DNA from: Ruminococcaceae bacterium YAD3003
GTDB taxonomy: Bacteria > Bacillota > Clostridia > Saccharofermentanales > Saccharofermentanaceae
Length of the DNA stretch: 64,000 bases
Assembly: GCA_900107185.1 (NCBI GenBank)
Contig: FNPA01000004.1
Location: 1 to 64,000 of the forward strand
Reading direction: 5' to 3'
Of this stretch, positions 6,845 through 54,781 are shown piece after piece; the first letter of the stretch is position 1, and each line of letters opens with the position of its first letter. A program made the translations under genes and the position numbers. The notes under the pieces are model-generated. The model made no database searches. It was given only the letters and a program-made list of their open reading frames with translations, and was not told the DNA's origin.

Positions 6845-8044
6845 GTGCATATACAGAAAAGGAAAGACTCTTATCGAATTATGGTAAGTGCTGGCTTTGA
6901 TGATGGAGTCCGGAAATTCCGTACAGCTACATTCAAACCTCCTAAAGGATTAACTCCAAGACAGGAACAAAAGGCGGTCACTGAATTCGCTGAATCTTTT
7001 GAACGCAAGGTAAGAGGCGGAATTACTATAAATTATACGAATATGACGTTCAGGCGATTCTGCAATGATTTATATTACAAAAACCATATTAATTTGCTTA
7101 AACCTAAAACTGCGAGCGGTTATAAAATCGTAATAGAAAAGAGATTGATGCCGTATTTTGGGGATATGCTGATCAAGAATATTACTCCCTTAGATATACG
7201 TGGATGGTTATCTAGTCTTGATCGTAGGGATGGTCGGAATGAAGAACTTTCTCGAAATACATCCGGCAGTTGGTTCCGTACTTTGTCAGCTATTCTTGGC
7301 AAAGCATACGAATGGGAAATCATAGATGAAAACCCTTGTAAGCGAATCAAGAGTCCAGCCAAATCTCATTCAGATGTTAACGCTCTGCAACTCGAAGATG
7401 TGCAGAAGATTATTACCAAGCTCCCTAAATACCATGATCAGCGAGCAAGAATGTTTATTTTGCTGGTATTGAATACGGGTATCCGAGAGGGAGAAGCGGC
7501 AGGCCTTGAATGGCAAGATATTGATTATGATAAACACCTGATATCGATAACAAGAACATCTCAATATATTCCCGGAACGGGTATGATCGAAAGCACACCA
7601 AAGAGTGTTTCGTCTGTTAGATCTATACCGATATCAAATAAGCTCATAGCTGAACTAAAAAAATATAAAAGATGGCAAGACAAAGAGATAGCTAAACTGG
7701 GAGAATTCTATCAAGGCAAAACAGGCGAAGAGGCAAGGTTGTTCACTACTTGGGAAGGTGCACCTGTGTTTGACAGTACATTCAGAAGCTGGCTGAATAA
7801 GTTCTTGGCGTGGTGTGGTGTTCCACATGTATCTGTTCATGGACTAAGACACACTTTTGCAAGCATACTGATAGCAAATGGTACAGATCCAAGAACAGCT
7901 GCAGCACTTTTAGGTCAGAGTTCACCTTCATTGGTTATGAATGTGTATGCAAATCCACAGAATGAAGCTAAGAAAAGAGCGATTGATAATCTTGATAGTA
8001 TTTACGATCCCCAAAAGAAGAAAAAGAAGAAATCAGCAGAGTAA
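6845..8044 (+). CDS. int: Tyrosine recombinase, phage/ICE integrase
   Basis: 399 residues, the usual size for Tn916/phage-type integrases. Residues 1-60 fit an arm-binding domain, 60-165 the SAM-like core-binding domain (LKPKTASGYKIVIEKRL), and 175-385 the catalytic domain. Catalytic residues are visible: Arg in LNTGIREGEAAGLEW, His and Arg in VHGLRHTFAS, and the nucleophile Tyr in NVYANP. It starts at GTG with AAGGAGG 7 bp upstream. It points at a tRNA-Thr 3' fragment 150 bp downstream, which fits site-specific integration into a tRNA gene. The C-terminus is a lysine tract. The protein looks intact. Confidence 0.95.
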   Translation: MHIQKRKDSYRIMVSAGFDDGVRKFRTATFKPPKGLTPRQEQKAVTEFAESFERKVRGGITINYTNMTFRRFCNDLYYKNHINLLKPKTASGYKIVIEKRLMPYFGDMLIKNITPLDIRGWLSSLDRRDGRNEELSRNTSGSWFRTLSAILGKAYEWEIIDENPCKRIKSPAKSHSDVNALQLEDVQKIITKLPKYHDQRARMFILLVLNTGIREGEAAGLEWQDIDYDKHLISITRTSQYIPGTGMIESTPKSVSSVRSIPISNKLIAELKKYKRWQDKEIAKLGEFYQGKTGEEARLFTTWEGAPVFDSTFRSWLNKFLAWCGVPHVSVHGLRHTFASILIANGTDPRTAAALLGQSSPSLVMNVYANPQNEAKKRAIDNLDSIYDPQKKKKKKSAE

Positions 8045-21256: not shown

Positions 21257-22345
21257 ATGGCAATAGATAAGAGTAAGACAGATCTGATAAAGGCTAAATA
21301 TGAAGAGCTCACCGGAACATTAAGTGATCCGGCAGTAGCTTCACGCCCTGAGGAATATACAAAGTATTCAAAAGAACTCGCATCCCTTAATCCGCAGGTC
21401 GAAGCTATTAAGAGTTACGAAGCCTGCGAAAAGGAAATAGAAGGAATACTTACGCTCTTAGAGAGCGGTGATTTAGGCGGCGATGACGAGATGAGAAGTC
21501 TTGCCAATGCCGAACTGGCAGATGCAAAGGAAAGATTGTCAGAACTGGAAAAAGAACTGATGATCTATCTGACTCCCGGTGATCCGAGAGACTCCAGATC
21601 TGTAATCCTTGAGATCAGGGCAGGTGCCGGCGGAGAAGAATCTGCGCTCTTTGCTTCTGATTTATTTAAGATGTATAAGGGCTATTCCGCTTTGAAAGGT
21701 TTTGATGTCAGCATAGTTGATATGAGTCCTACCGAACTTGGTGGATACAAAGAAATAGTAGCCGAAATAGACGGTCCGAGAGTTTATTCCAGAATGAAGT
21801 TTGAGAGCGGAGTTCACAGAGTCCAGAGAGTTCCTGTAACTGAATCAGGCGGCAGGGTTCATACATCAACTGCAACCGTCGCAGTTCTGCCGAAGGCTGA
21901 ACCGACCGATGTCGAGATCAATCCGAATGATCTTAAGATCGACCGTTTCAGAGCATCTGGTGCAGGCGGCCAGCACATCAATAAGACATCTTCTGCTATA
22001 AGAATTACACACCTTCCGACAGGCATGGTTGTTACATGTCAGGACGAGAGATCGCAGATTCAGAACAAAGAGAAGGCGATGGAAGTATTACAGAGCCGCT
22101 TGTGGGCCATTGCGCATCAGGCTGACGTTGACAGACATAACGATGAGAGAAAATCGCAGGTAGGAACAGGTGACAGATCGGAGAGAATCCGCACTTATAA
22201 CTACCACCAGGGCAGAGTTACTGATCACAGAATAGGCTTGACTCTATATAAACTCGACAGTATTCTTGCAGGCGATCTTGATGAGATAGTTGATGCATTA
22301 ACACTTGCACAGGCAGCGGAAAATGCCGGTGGTAGCGAGGAATGA
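21257..22345 (+). CDS. prfA: Peptide chain release factor 1
   Basis: 362 residues, normal for RF1. It ends translation at UAA and UAG codons. The GGQ loop is present in FRASGAGGQHINKTSSAIR, and the preceding HRVQRVPVTESGGRVHTSTA is characteristic of class I release factors. The initial helical domain, domain 2 and the C-terminal DHRIGLTLYKLD segment are all complete. The GGQ glutamine is the substrate of a PrmC-type methylase, but no prmC gene is adjacent. The start ATG 21257 has no clear ribosome binding site. The Sua5 gene follows 13 bp downstream. Confidence 0.97.
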   Translation: MAIDKSKTDLIKAKYEELTGTLSDPAVASRPEEYTKYSKELASLNPQVEAIKSYEACEKEIEGILTLLESGDLGGDDEMRSLANAELADAKERLSELEKELMIYLTPGDPRDSRSVILEIRAGAGGEESALFASDLFKMYKGYSALKGFDVSIVDMSPTELGGYKEIVAEIDGPRVYSRMKFESGVHRVQRVPVTESGGRVHTSTATVAVLPKAEPTDVEINPNDLKIDRFRASGAGGQHINKTSSAIRITHLPTGMVVTCQDERSQIQNKEKAMEVLQSRLWAIAHQADVDRHNDERKSQVGTGDRSERIRTYNYHQGRVTDHRIGLTLYKLDSILAGDLDEIVDALTLAQAAENAGGSEE

Positions 22346-22358
22346 TAAAGAGGTAAAT

Positions 22359-24167
22359 ATGGAACGCTCTAAATTGTATAAGAAAACATTACTTATAGAT
22401 TCATCTGATGATAAAGCTATCAAGGATGCCGCTGAGCATCTGAGAAACGGTGAGGTAGTCGGGTTCCCCACAGAGACCGTTTACGGTTTGGGATGTGACG
22501 GCAGAAACGGTGATGCAGTAAAGAAAGTTTTCGAAGCGAAGGGCCGTCCTGCAGATAACCCCTTGATCTGCCATATAGGTGATAAATCACAGATCAGAGA
22601 AATTGTTTCCGAGATAACGCCTCTTGCCCAAAAGCTTATTGATGCTTTCATGCCCGGCCCGATTACGCTGGTTATGAAAAAGGCAGAATGCATAGCAGAT
22701 GAGACTACGGCAGGCCTTGATACAGTCGGTGTCAGAATGCCTTCTAATCCTGTTGCAAATAAATTCCTGAAATATGCAGCAGTTCCTGTTGCCGCACCTT
22801 CTGCGAATCTGTCGGGAAGACCTTCTCCTACGAGTGCGAGATCTGTTCTCGAAGATATGGACGGATATATATACGCAATTATCGATGGCGGAGATTCCGA
22901 ATACGGACTCGAATCTACTGTTGTTGACTGCACAGGAACAGATCCTGTTATCTTAAGACCCGGTGCAGTTACAAAGGCTGATATTGATGCGGTTTTGAAA
23001 GATAAGGAGGCTGTTATGGCTGGCAGTATTACTGATGGAGAAGCTCCGAAGGCACCCGGAATGAAGTATCGTCACTATGCGCCTTATGCCCAGGTGGAGA
23101 TTATAAAAATGCCTGAAGGTACAAAGATTACTGGCGACAATGCAATCGGTACTGACGGTAAGATCGATAAGTCTGCTTCTGAGCCCGTAGACCTCAAAAA
23201 GCTTTCTGATGACGAGGCAAAAGAATTAGTTAATATCGCAGCTCCTTTTATTTTAAGGTCCCGTGAGATACTCGCTGAAAATCCTTTCGCGAGGATCGGC
23301 CTTTATTGTGGAAGTGAGATAAAAGCTATGTATGACAAGATGAACGATAAACTCCTGTCAGCGCATACGGAGTTCTGTGTCTATGGAAATACCGTTGATG
23401 TTTCATGTGCTTCACATGGCCTGTTCGAAGGATTGAGATTTCTTGATGTACAGGAAGTAGATGTAATCCTGGCACAGGGTTTTGACGGCGAAGGATTATC
23501 AGTTGCATATATGAACAGGCTTGGCAAAGCTTCCGGTAAGAAAGAGGCGTTAACCCCCGGTATGCCTGCTCCTTCCAGACCCGCGAGAACACCGCTTCCT
23601 CTTGATGCATTTAAGGATACATATACTGCTTCTGTTTTGTTTGTAGATGACAACAATATCTCTTTGTCTGCATGTCTTGAAACACTTATGAGACGAATGA
23701 TCGAGAAGAATGAACCTTATATCTCGAGCAAAGCAAGCGATACAGGTTTTGAAATCTATTGCGAATCCGCAGGCCTAACTGCTATGAACGGACTTGATCC
23801 CGATCCTGAGATGGAAAGGGCTGTAAAAGAACTTACAGGCCTTGGTATGGGATACGTTGAATCCAGAAGGGCAGACCCTGCGATCTATGACGACAATGAC
23901 CTTATCCTGACTGTAAGGGATGAACAGGCATTTGAAATTACAAAGGCATTCCCTGAGATTAAGGATAAAGTATTCTCTTTATCAACGTTTGCCGCTGCAA
24001 ACGGACTGGTAATGAAGGATTCATCCGGAAGAGTAATGTCCATTTCTGTTCCAGATCCGTCAGGCGAGAACTATGAGACATATCTTCACACCGCGAGAGC
24101 ACTCGGCGCATGGCTCGAACTGCTGTTCCCTTATATCCTGAAAGAACTCGGTGCTTCAAGGATCTGA
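22359..24167 (+). CDS. ywlC: Sua5/YwlC threonylcarbamoyl-AMP synthase fused to a degenerate LMW-PTP domain
   Basis: 602 residues from ATG 22359, which follows AGAGGT. Residues 15-215 are the YrdC domain that makes threonylcarbamoyl-AMP for tRNA t6A37: GEVVGFPTETVYGLGCDGRN, KGRPADNPL, PSANLSGRPSPTSA. KAPGMKYRHYAPYA starts the Sua5 linker, and a Sua5-type C-terminal domain follows to about 400. Residues 423-600 align with low-molecular-weight tyrosine phosphatases: SVLFV at the P-loop strand, ESAGL, ADPAIYDDNDLILTV, and PDPSGENYETY at the DPxG general-acid loop. The P-loop reads VDDNNISLS instead of VCTGNTCRS: the nucleophile Cys is Asp430 and the essential Arg is Leu436. Phosphatase chemistry should therefore be lost while the fold remains. 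Confidence 0.9.
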   Translation: MERSKLYKKTLLIDSSDDKAIKDAAEHLRNGEVVGFPTETVYGLGCDGRNGDAVKKVFEAKGRPADNPLICHIGDKSQIREIVSEITPLAQKLIDAFMPGPITLVMKKAECIADETTAGLDTVGVRMPSNPVANKFLKYAAVPVAAPSANLSGRPSPTSARSVLEDMDGYIYAIIDGGDSEYGLESTVVDCTGTDPVILRPGAVTKADIDAVLKDKEAVMAGSITDGEAPKAPGMKYRHYAPYAQVEIIKMPEGTKITGDNAIGTDGKIDKSASEPVDLKKLSDDEAKELVNIAAPFILRSREILAENPFARIGLYCGSEIKAMYDKMNDKLLSAHTEFCVYGNTVDVSCASHGLFEGLRFLDVQEVDVILAQGFDGEGLSVAYMNRLGKASGKKEALTPGMPAPSRPARTPLPLDAFKDTYTASVLFVDDNNISLSACLETLMRRMIEKNEPYISSKASDTGFEIYCESAGLTAMNGLDPDPEMERAVKELTGLGMGYVESRRADPAIYDDNDLILTVRDEQAFEITKAFPEIKDKVFSLSTFAAANGLVMKDSSGRVMSISVPDPSGENYETYLHTARALGAWLELLFPYILKELGASRI

Positions 24168-24420: not shown

Positions 24421-24437
24421 AGAAGGAGGTGAATGAC

Positions 24438-24725
24438 ATGGCAAACCAATATCGTTTGATCACAATCCTTTCCACTGCTAATGGTGAAGAGGGTATTGCT
24501 TCTCTTACTGACACAATTAAGGCTAAGATCGAATCAGGTGCTACGATTGACGCATTTGACGCAATCGGAACACGTGAGCTCGCTTACGAGATTGATGGTC
24601 AGAAGAACGGCTACTATGTTCAGACAGTATTTACTGCCGAGAGCGAATTTCCTAAGGAAATTGAGCGTGTTCTCAAGATTACTGACGGCGTTATTCGTTA
24701 TCTCATTGTTCGTGTCGGTGAGTAA
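24438..24725 (+). CDS. rpsF: 30S ribosomal protein S6
   Basis: 95 residues from ATG 24438, which has AAGGAGG 8 bp upstream (an in-frame GTG at 24429 overlaps that site). The sequence YRLITILS ... and the C-terminal GVIRYLIVRVGE are typical of S6, which binds S18 on the platform of the small subunit. It opens the canonical S6-SSB-S18 operon and carries the autoregulatory leader upstream. Confidence 0.96.
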   Translation: MANQYRLITILSTANGEEGIASLTDTIKAKIESGATIDAFDAIGTRELAYEIDGQKNGYYVQTVFTAESEFPKEIERVLKITDGVIRYLIVRVGE

Positions 24726-53374: not shown

Positions 53375-54781
53375 ATGAACATATTAAAGCAGTTTCTGGC
53401 TATATTTGTTATGGCGCTGGTAACAGCGTCATTAAGTTCTGTTGCATGGAAATGTGAAGTAAGATCCGGCGCCAACAGAGGCTGGGTATATACCGGAGAT
53501 TCTGCTTACTATTACGATGATCAGGGCGAAGAACTCGTTGGAATGCAGGTAATGCCTGATGACGGAACAACCAGATATTTCGATCCTGAAACCCATGCAA
53601 TGGTTAAGGGCGAAGTTGAGATTGACGGAAACAGATATTTCTTTGACGAGAACGGTGTTCTCGCTACCGGATTCCAGACCGTAGACGGAAACACTAAATA
53701 CTATGGTAATGATACAGGTATCATGAAGACCGGCTGGGTTACTTCAGGTCCTGAAAAGTTCTATTTTGATGAGATGACCGGCAATGAAGTATTCGGCTGG
53801 ACAGAGATCGGCGGAAATAAATACTATTTTGCTGAAGACAGCGGAAAACTGGTAAAAGGTTCTTTCGAGCTGGAAGGAAACAAATATTATTCTGATGCTG
53901 AAACAGGAATCCTGACCAGAGGCGTTGCAACTATCGATGAGAAGCAATATTACTTCGACAAAGATACAGGCATAATGACCACAGGCTGGGTCGAACTCGA
54001 TGGAAACAAGTATTACTTCGATGAAGAGACCGGCGCAGGTTACGATGGAATTATCACTCTCGAAGGATCCACTTATGGTTTTATCGGTGGAATGATGCTC
54101 ACTAACAAGAGAGCGATTGGTAATAATCATCTCTATTATTTTGGCGAAGACGGAACAGTTGTCCGTGAGATTGATGGTTCCAAACCGATGGTTGCCATCA
54201 CATACGATGACGGTCCTTCTATTTATACGGATTCAATCCTCGACGTATACGAGGAATATGGCCAGAAGTGCACATTCTTCGTAGTAGGTGACAGAATCAG
54301 CTGGAATGAGGAAGCCGCTATCCGTGAATATGAATTGGGCTGCGAGCAGGGTAATCACACATATAGTCACAACAGACTTACAGATCTTGATGCCGACGGA
54401 ATTACAGAAGTTCTCGCAGGAACAGATAACGAACTCATAAGAATTTCAGGTAAGCCATCAACATGCTTAAGGCCGCCTGAAGGTAGATATAATGATGTCG
54501 TAAAAGAAGTATGCGGTGTGCCGATCATTCTTTGGAGTATTGATACCGAGGACTGGAAGAGCAGAAACGCAGATTCTATTTGCAACCGTGTTATCGGTAA
54601 AGTAAAAGACGGCGACATCATTCTCATGCATGACCTTTATCAGTCAACCGCTGATGCAACAAAGAGAATCGTTCCCGCACTCGTTGATGCAGGATTCCAG
54701 CTCGTTACAGTAGAAGAGATGGGACTTCTCAAAATTGATGGCGGACTCGAGCCCGGAGTAGTTTACTATTCTATCCCGTAA
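53375..54781 (+). CDS. Polysaccharide deacetylase with cell-wall-binding repeats
   Basis: 468 residues. An N-terminal signal or anchor (LAIFVMALVTASLSSVAW) is followed by about nine 20-residue aromatic repeats (residues 35-265; GNKYYFDEETG, GWVELDGNKYYF) of the choline/glucan-binding type. Residues 272-460 are a NodB-homology deacetylase: TYDDGPS with the metal-binding Asp pair, GNHTYSHNRL with the His pair, LRPPEGRYND and SIDTEDW, and DIILMHD at the end. It is expected to remove acetyl groups from peptidoglycan GlcNAc or a related wall polymer. The DUF2974 gene follows 19 bp later, suggesting a common wall-related function. Confidence 0.92.
   Translation: MNILKQFLAIFVMALVTASLSSVAWKCEVRSGANRGWVYTGDSAYYYDDQGEELVGMQVMPDDGTTRYFDPETHAMVKGEVEIDGNRYFFDENGVLATGFQTVDGNTKYYGNDTGIMKTGWVTSGPEKFYFDEMTGNEVFGWTEIGGNKYYFAEDSGKLVKGSFELEGNKYYSDAETGILTRGVATIDEKQYYFDKDTGIMTTGWVELDGNKYYFDEETGAGYDGIITLEGSTYGFIGGMMLTNKRAIGNNHLYYFGEDGTVVREIDGSKPMVAITYDDGPSIYTDSILDVYEEYGQKCTFFVVGDRISWNEEAAIREYELGCEQGNHTYSHNRLTDLDADGITEVLAGTDNELIRISGKPSTCLRPPEGRYNDVVKEVCGVPIILWSIDTEDWKSRNADSICNRVIGKVKDGDIILMHDLYQSTADATKRIVPALVDAGFQLVTVEEMGLLKIDGGLEPGVVYYSIP

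Follow-up and report, generated by a model that had tools for sequence, protein, structure and literature searches.

The window analysed here, the first 64,000 nucleotides of contig FNPA01000004.1 from Ruminococcaceae bacterium YAD3003, contains on its plus strand a coding sequence of 602 amino acids (22359..24167) that we annotate, from the open reading frame and Pfam, as Sua5 (L-threonylcarbamoyladenylate synthase) fused to a putative pseudophosphatase of the low-molecular-weight protein tyrosine phosphatase (LMW-PTP) family, YwlE type. The frame is continuous, running without internal stops from an ATG at 22359 to a stop codon that ends at 24167. It encodes the Sua5/YrdC catalytic domain (residues 27-202; 22437..22964, +; Sua5_yciO_yrdC, E 2.9e-58), the Sua5_C domain (residues 204-393; 22968..23537, +; E 5.2e-23) and an LMW phosphatase domain with a predicted YwlE-like fold (residues 426-579; 23634..24095, +). 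The Pfam match to LMWPc (E 3.6e-6; 1.8e-7 for the domain alone) reaches 27.7 bits, above the cut-off of 23.2. The Sua5 part matches the equivalog model TIGR00057 with 203.4 bits (cut-off 123.2) and, having Sua5_C as well, is identified as a genuine Sua5. Both Sua5 domains, well over their curated cut-offs, are shared with the Sua5/TsaC/YwlC proteins, from which the fusion differs by its extra third domain.

The flanking genes on the same strand, named by eye, are presumably prfA, for release factor 1 (21257..22345), and rpsF, for ribosomal protein S6 (24429..24725). Outgroup loci have a similar setting: prfA precedes sua5 in L040, L041 and L042, for example, and rpsF and ssb lie downstream in L040 and L050. 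Inspection by eye of the rest of the window picked out a tyrosine-recombinase-like integrase frame (6845-8044, +), which may mark the edge of a mobile element, and a frame with aromatic- and Gly-rich repeats of choline-binding-like appearance followed by a polysaccharide-deacetylase-like part (53375-54781, +). In a profile search of the window's genome the fusion is the sole Sua5-type match; a second PF01300 match lies in a 760-residue frame that we take to be HypF. Within the genus to which this genome belongs (the host genus), the fusion is present in 32 of 35 genomes, one copy being split across two contigs; it was not found in G004, G010 and G033, which are 74-89% complete.

The P-loop of the fused phosphatase domain

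The P-loop stretch of the window's fusion reads VLFVDDNNISLS. Alignment of the loop proper, DDNNISLS (residues 430-437; 23646..23669, +), bears out a preliminary description of the locus in placing Asp430 at the position of the nucleophilic cysteine and Leu436 at that of the phosphate-binding arginine. The CX5R signature of an active YwlE-type arginine phosphatase is therefore missing from the window, and it is equally missing from all 84 aligned sequences of the host genus: 28 have only the cysteine, two only the arginine and 54 neither. This set comprises rows of 480 residues or more, and one species may be represented twice, from two collections. The fifth loop position, at which a threonine selects phosphoarginine according to the excerpted text of PMC8001253, is occupied by Ile434. 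The general-acid motif Asp566-Pro567 (PDPSG; 24054..24059, +) is retained, and its aspartate is present in 70/70 aligned genus rows.

A scan of contigs yielded 73 fusion loci from records titled Saccharofermentans, Mageeibacillus, Ruminococcaceae, Oscillospiraceae, Clostridiales or Clostridia, and many of the titles name rumen or gut. The loop was read in 67 of these loci and never contains cysteine and arginine together; the remaining six comprise three fragments at contig edges and three pattern misses, the latter being included in the alignment of 84. The usual loops are VDDNN(T/I)SLS, VDDDNTCLS, VCDDNTCLS, VCDDNKTLS, VSDDDVNLG and VGDNNTARS. We regard an error of sequencing or assembly, or a frameshift, as having a negligible probability, as the frame is continuous and the broken loop repeats in many assemblies, among them AB4001 and KHP2, which are not titled as MAGs. 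The preliminary description had proposed that homologues with the same layout and a normal loop would expose the window's sequence as an artefact. Such homologues do exist (see below), but the suspicion of an artefact does not hold, given that the alignment of relatives finds the broken loop in 84/84 genus sequences.

The same description suggested that the domain could be a regulatory module that binds phosphate or phosphoproteins without hydrolysis. Retention of the fold and of the general-acid DP motif would be in keeping with this idea, but the phosphate-binding arginine is lost from 82 of the 84 loops, an acidic residue occupies the position of the threonine that follows the cysteine in 65 of 67 genus sequences, and the likely source of phosphoarginine, the kinase McsB, is itself broken (see below). 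We consider a phospho-binding module very unlikely; a regulatory or scaffolding part played by the domain is conceivable.

A search of the window's genome for a separate, intact ywlE turned up an intact LMW phosphatase, although not one of the YwlE type. This free-standing enzyme (C4:846-1271) has the loop VCHGNICRS, in which the selectivity position is Ile, as in tyrosine phosphatases. At L001:837-1298, a contig of 3963 bases carries a free-standing LMW phosphatase of the tyrosine type with CHGNICRS. This motif is intact in the free-standing LMW phosphatase of all 22 genus loci inspected, and loop decay is therefore not general to the fold.

Fold and descent of the C-terminal domain

An AlphaFold2 model of the domain, calculated with 39 relatives, has a mean pLDDT of 90.8. 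The top five rows of a Foldseek search consist of YwlE chains and the LMW phosphatase of T. tengcongensis (E 2.9e-11 to 4.0e-10). In VIA-align, the T. tengcongensis enzyme (4egs) has a Z score of 22.3, and YwlE entries have scores of 19.4-21.5. The LMW phosphatase pattern originally recognised in the C-terminal residues is thus confirmed by an LMWPc match above the cut-off and by YwlE structures among the top matches, and the structure prediction that had been called for yields an LMW-PTP fold, not an unrelated one. On the curated cut-off and the fold, we assign the domain by descent to the LMW-PTP family (PF01451). Matches to the PDB by sequence, using the window's domain alone, are weak, the best having an E value of 0.015 (4egs) and the next, a YwlE, 0.12. 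An ArsC-like identity was considered and rejected: LMW phosphatases are the top structural matches, and ArsC is listed lower, with a Z score of about 16. A model of the full-length fusion (pLDDT 85.2, pTM 0.84) suggests that the domains take up a defined mutual arrangement.

The fused domain shares with YwlE/PtpB the fold, the SAG motif and the general-acid DP loop. Fused domains of the sister genera also retain the CxGNTCRS loop and its arginine-selecting threonine, whereas those of the host genus, likewise joined to Sua5, never combine the nucleophilic cysteine with the phosphate-binding arginine and contain longer stretches than outgroup fusions, for instance ahead of the DP loop. A conserved phosphatase fold with a broken CX5R signature is also characteristic of known pseudophosphatases, such as STYX and the pseudo-myotubularins. 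The present case differs from them in that it concerns the bacterial LMW-PTP family, has a tRNA-modification enzyme attached and is accompanied by a broken opposing kinase.

Sixteen genomes represent the sister genera g17-g20, which belong to the same family as the host genus. The fusion is readable in 13 of them (the loop is unreadable in G140, G141 and G133), and in each of these the C(S/T)GNTCRS loop is intact, with Thr at the phosphoarginine-selecting position. Elsewhere in the order, outside this family, the gene right after sua5 encodes a stand-alone phosphatase whose CTGNTCRSP loop is intact, or the two are fused; three other-family genomes have intact-loop fusions (L049, L051, L053). 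Two families of the class, f17 (G162, G192, G238, G215, G260, G280) and f27 (G267, G223), include genomes with single frames of 486-561 residues that hold both Sua5_C and LMWPc (76-116 bits); the Sua5-LMW phosphatase fusion as such is not unique. Among all fusions in which the loop was read, the broken loop is confined to the host genus.

A quick maximum-likelihood tree calculated without the loop columns separates the genus from the other sequences by a branch with an SH-aLRT support of 100 and a long stem. The tree has 68 rows, after removal of rows at least 88% identical to a kept row, and 21 weak forks. The loop changes that it implies, at least six for the cysteine and at least two for the arginine, settle neither their order nor their number. 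Intact fusions in the sister genera, together with the branch that sets the genus apart, indicate that the fusion came first and the decay of the loop later; judged from these sequences, the decay is placed on the genus stem or inside the genus. The preliminary description, which took ywlC and ywlE to be near neighbours in Bacillus, had proposed that the genes fused and that catalysis was lost afterwards, and the intact-loop fusions of the sister genera and other families support this order of events.

The opposing kinase McsB

YwlE removes the phosphoarginine that McsB puts on. The McsB of the window's genome (C17:172900-173433; L092:4580-5701, minus strand; PF00217) has lost its kinase motifs, as seen in an alignment to G. 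stearothermophilus McsB (6fh1). Motif reading covered 43 genomes of the genus; G003, G004 and further genus genomes were assessed by score only. The NEEDHIR, CPTN and RGxYGEG motifs that identify an active arginine kinase are absent in this form from all 43. None has either of the NEED glutamates, the CPTN cysteine, the RG glycine or the GEG glutamate, and the HIR arginine is retained in one, the RG arginine in four and the ARN arginine in 43. Work on guanidino kinases has established catalytic roles for the glutamates. The cysteine is described as catalytically essential in the excerpted text of PMC12467219. The second NEED glutamate, the HIR arginine, RG and the GEG glutamate are all retained in 9/9 McsB sequences from sister genera and 8/8 from other families, with Asp replacing the first NEED glutamate in two of the latter eight. 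The CPTN cysteine is found in 8/8 other-family sequences and four of the nine from sister genera. The other five, all from g18 (L237, L241-L244), have Tyr in its place and read YPSN, their Glu and Arg motifs being intact.

Profile scores agree with the motif reading. PF00217 matches score 67-127 bits in the host genus, while complete matches from the order's other genera reach 157-225; matches cut by contig edges score lower. With the NCBI McsB model, the sequence from the window's genome reaches 128 bits (cut-off 385) and an outgroup McsB 416. In a comparison by sequence, the window genome's protein matches solved McsB chains best. No genus genome has more than one PF00217 match, and a search with this profile did not find McsB in the genus genomes G023, G147 and G148.

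Could the kinase or the phosphatase retain activity through substitute residues, so that the phosphoarginine cycle is still running? The cysteine kept in 28/84 phosphatase loops and the ARN arginine present in 43/43 McsB sequences might be taken to favour this. The NEED, CPTN and GEG positions and those of the phosphatase loop, however, take many different residues across species, and such varied replacements suggest that constraint was relaxed, not that a new active site was formed. We judge surviving activity to be highly improbable.

The genus McsB occupies the same operon position as the active kinase, after ctsR-mcsA and before clpC (ctsR in the window's genome only), but has other residues at each of the catalytic Glu, Cys and Glu positions. 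McsA upstream and clpC immediately after mcsB, on the same strand, were found at 43/43 genus loci; at least four CxxC motifs are present in 41 of the 43 McsA sequences, and CtsR was confirmed by Pfam at the mcsB locus of one genome, that of the window. GTEH and PEH residues of ClpC are involved in reading phosphoarginine. The N-terminal domain of ClpC (L092:1915-4605, minus strand) is strongly diverged, with LIRDT replacing the pocket-1 GTEH in the window's clade; TE is retained in pocket 1 of the other genus clades, and the pocket-2 PEH is mostly retained. The median dN/dS of ClpC is 0.080 for the N-terminal domain and 0.028 for the ATPase stretch. We rejected the notion of a fully dead phosphoarginine reader throughout the genus, the loss of the pocket-1 GTEH being limited to the window's clade. 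Clp_N was not among 25 of the 29 Pfam families listed for genus ClpC, an absence that supports no claim.

The association between sua5 and the phosphatase largely follows the state of McsB. Within the sampled order, an intact LMW phosphatase is next to or fused to sua5 in 18/18 McsB-containing outgroup genomes in which sua5 was found, and a sua5-linked LMW phosphatase occurs in 0/5 genomes without McsB. In a class-wide set of 146 genomes, we counted as linked an LMWPc match no more than 1500 bases downstream of Sua5_C. Among the LMWPc matches listed, which go down to about 75 bits, 81 of the 89 genomes whose McsB scores high show linkage, compared with five of the 40 that have no McsB (Fisher p 1.4e-18, kinship ignored); the exceptions among these matches are eight unlinked genomes with McsB and five linked ones without. 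McsB was called by score in 94 genomes, including contig-edge fragments in G282 and G166, and five that have no Sua5_C match were left out of the comparison; the motifs were read in three of the 94, namely G037 (L117), G226 and G175, for the last of which the LMWPc position was taken from a separate reading of its locus.

Degenerate McsB sequences also occur outside the order, in G155, G248, G288, G250 and G190 (L269, L270, L271, L272, L274). All five are missing the Cys and RG. Some glutamates persist: the first NEED Glu and the GEG Glu in G155, the second NEED Glu and the GEG Glu in G288, the second NEED Glu in G250 and both NEED glutamates in G190. The McsB of G248 is as bare as that of the host genus, both NEED glutamates and the GEG glutamate being gone. 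None of the five genomes has a sua5-linked LMW phosphatase; G250, which has no Sua5_C match, is included in this count because an LMWPc match is wholly absent. G226 and G175, from the family of G248, have a canonical McsB and a linked phosphatase with the loop CTGNTCRSP. In G272, a congener of G250, McsB scores high and an LMWPc gene lies apart from sua5. Kinase decay and phosphatase loss may thus have happened several times, and the cases may represent different stages.

Selection on the inactive domains and the fate of the phosphoarginine cycle

In the window's clade, the median dN/dS is 0.051 for the dead phosphatase domain, 0.052 for Sua5 and 0.098 for the pseudo-McsB (10 fusion loci, 45 pairs; 10 McsB); these values are rough, since synonymous positions are almost saturated, with a median pS of 0.63-0.72, and dS was not finite for some pairs. 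For the close fusion pair L006-L008, dN/dS is 0.062 in Sua5 and 0.033 in the dead domain. Across the whole genus, 36 of 190 columns in the dead domain are at least 95% conserved, compared to 137 of 380 in Sua5, and 16 columns of the dead domain are fixed (at least 95%) for a residue unlike the sister-genus majority. Neither the dead domain nor the pseudo-McsB looks like a decaying pseudogene, as far as substitution patterns can tell. At this level, the fused domain, a putative pseudophosphatase, shows loss of catalytic residues and purifying selection.

The conservation of the domain need not signify a function. It could be a vestigial passenger, retained only since its removal would destabilise Sua5. 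We consider this possible, if somewhat doubtful. The domain sits on the genome's sole Sua5 and is less conserved than it; moreover, among the matches listed, a sua5-linked phosphatase is usually missing where McsB is absent (5/40 linked) or degenerate (0/5). The dN/dS of the dead domain, on the other hand, equals that of the active Sua5 domain in the window's clade. The 16 fixed columns also speak against a mere passenger, but they are not decisive, because a buried packing role would leave the same signal.

Our preferred reading is that the fused domain is a conserved pseudophosphatase of YwlE descent and that, on the sequence evidence, it took part in a concerted loss of the phosphoarginine cycle. 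The genomes combine the fusion, its dead loop, broken McsB motifs, an intact state in the sister genera and signs of purifying selection on both bodies; phosphoarginine tagging seems to have been switched off in the genus, with the bodies of kinase and phosphatase kept. We think it probable that the fused YwlE-type domain lost its loop on the genus stem or within the genus as a consequence of catalytic loss in McsB, which is broken in the same lineage and whose failure would have removed the substrate. A YwlE-type domain would have joined Sua5 before the host genus arose; catalytic loss in McsB would then have taken away the substrate of the phosphatase, the loop would have drifted next, and the remainder of the domain would have been retained as an element of the Sua5 fold or for scaffolding. 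No phosphoarginine would be made in the genus. An eraser welded to the sole Sua5 would have its body kept under purifying selection for that reason, whereas an eraser encoded by a free gene is usually missing once the writer is lost; the dead domain would thus persist through its attachment, in a structural or scaffold role.

The pseudo-McsB, for its part, would survive because of a task that needs no kinase activity and is shared with McsA and ClpC, both still encoded alongside it. Excerpts of PMC5506225 report that, in B. subtilis, the role of McsB as an adaptor for ClpC requires kinase activity, which speaks against reading the pseudo-McsB as a simple kinase-free adaptor; they also report that McsB takes CtsR off DNA independently of its kinase activity when McsA is oxidised. 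A still wider reading, which we put forward tentatively and consider rather unlikely, is that Clostridia have repeatedly taken phosphoarginine signalling apart, McsB becoming a pseudokinase that works with McsA, CtsR and ClpC but does not phosphorylate, and the fused YwlE of the host genus becoming a scaffold, in a novel non-catalytic role, that ties t6A synthesis to kinase-free quality control.

Our literature search, covering CC-licensed PMC papers in excerpt, did not turn up a description of any fusion between Sua5 and an LMW phosphatase, any naturally occurring McsB pseudokinase, any bacterial LMW pseudophosphatase or any dead fused phosphatase with concerted loss of the kinase. The excerpts of PMC5177608, PMC12599244, PMC9654439 and PMC10128030 likewise contain no report of the fusion, the pseudokinase or the pseudophosphatase.

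A sua5-linked LMW phosphatase could serve as a genomic marker of a working phosphoarginine system in the class. The dead eraser on Sua5 would be the matching relic of this pathway, and its tie to Sua5 fits the link to t6A synthesis described for B. subtilis in excerpts of PMC7546277, according to which the t6A enzyme TsaD is arginine-phosphorylated and under the control of McsB and YwlE through ClpCP. Since McsB and its operon persist in the host genus with the catalytic positions replaced throughout, the genus provides natural separation-of-function material. It raises the question of what McsB does without phosphorylation, which the partly degenerate copies in several other lineages pose as well.
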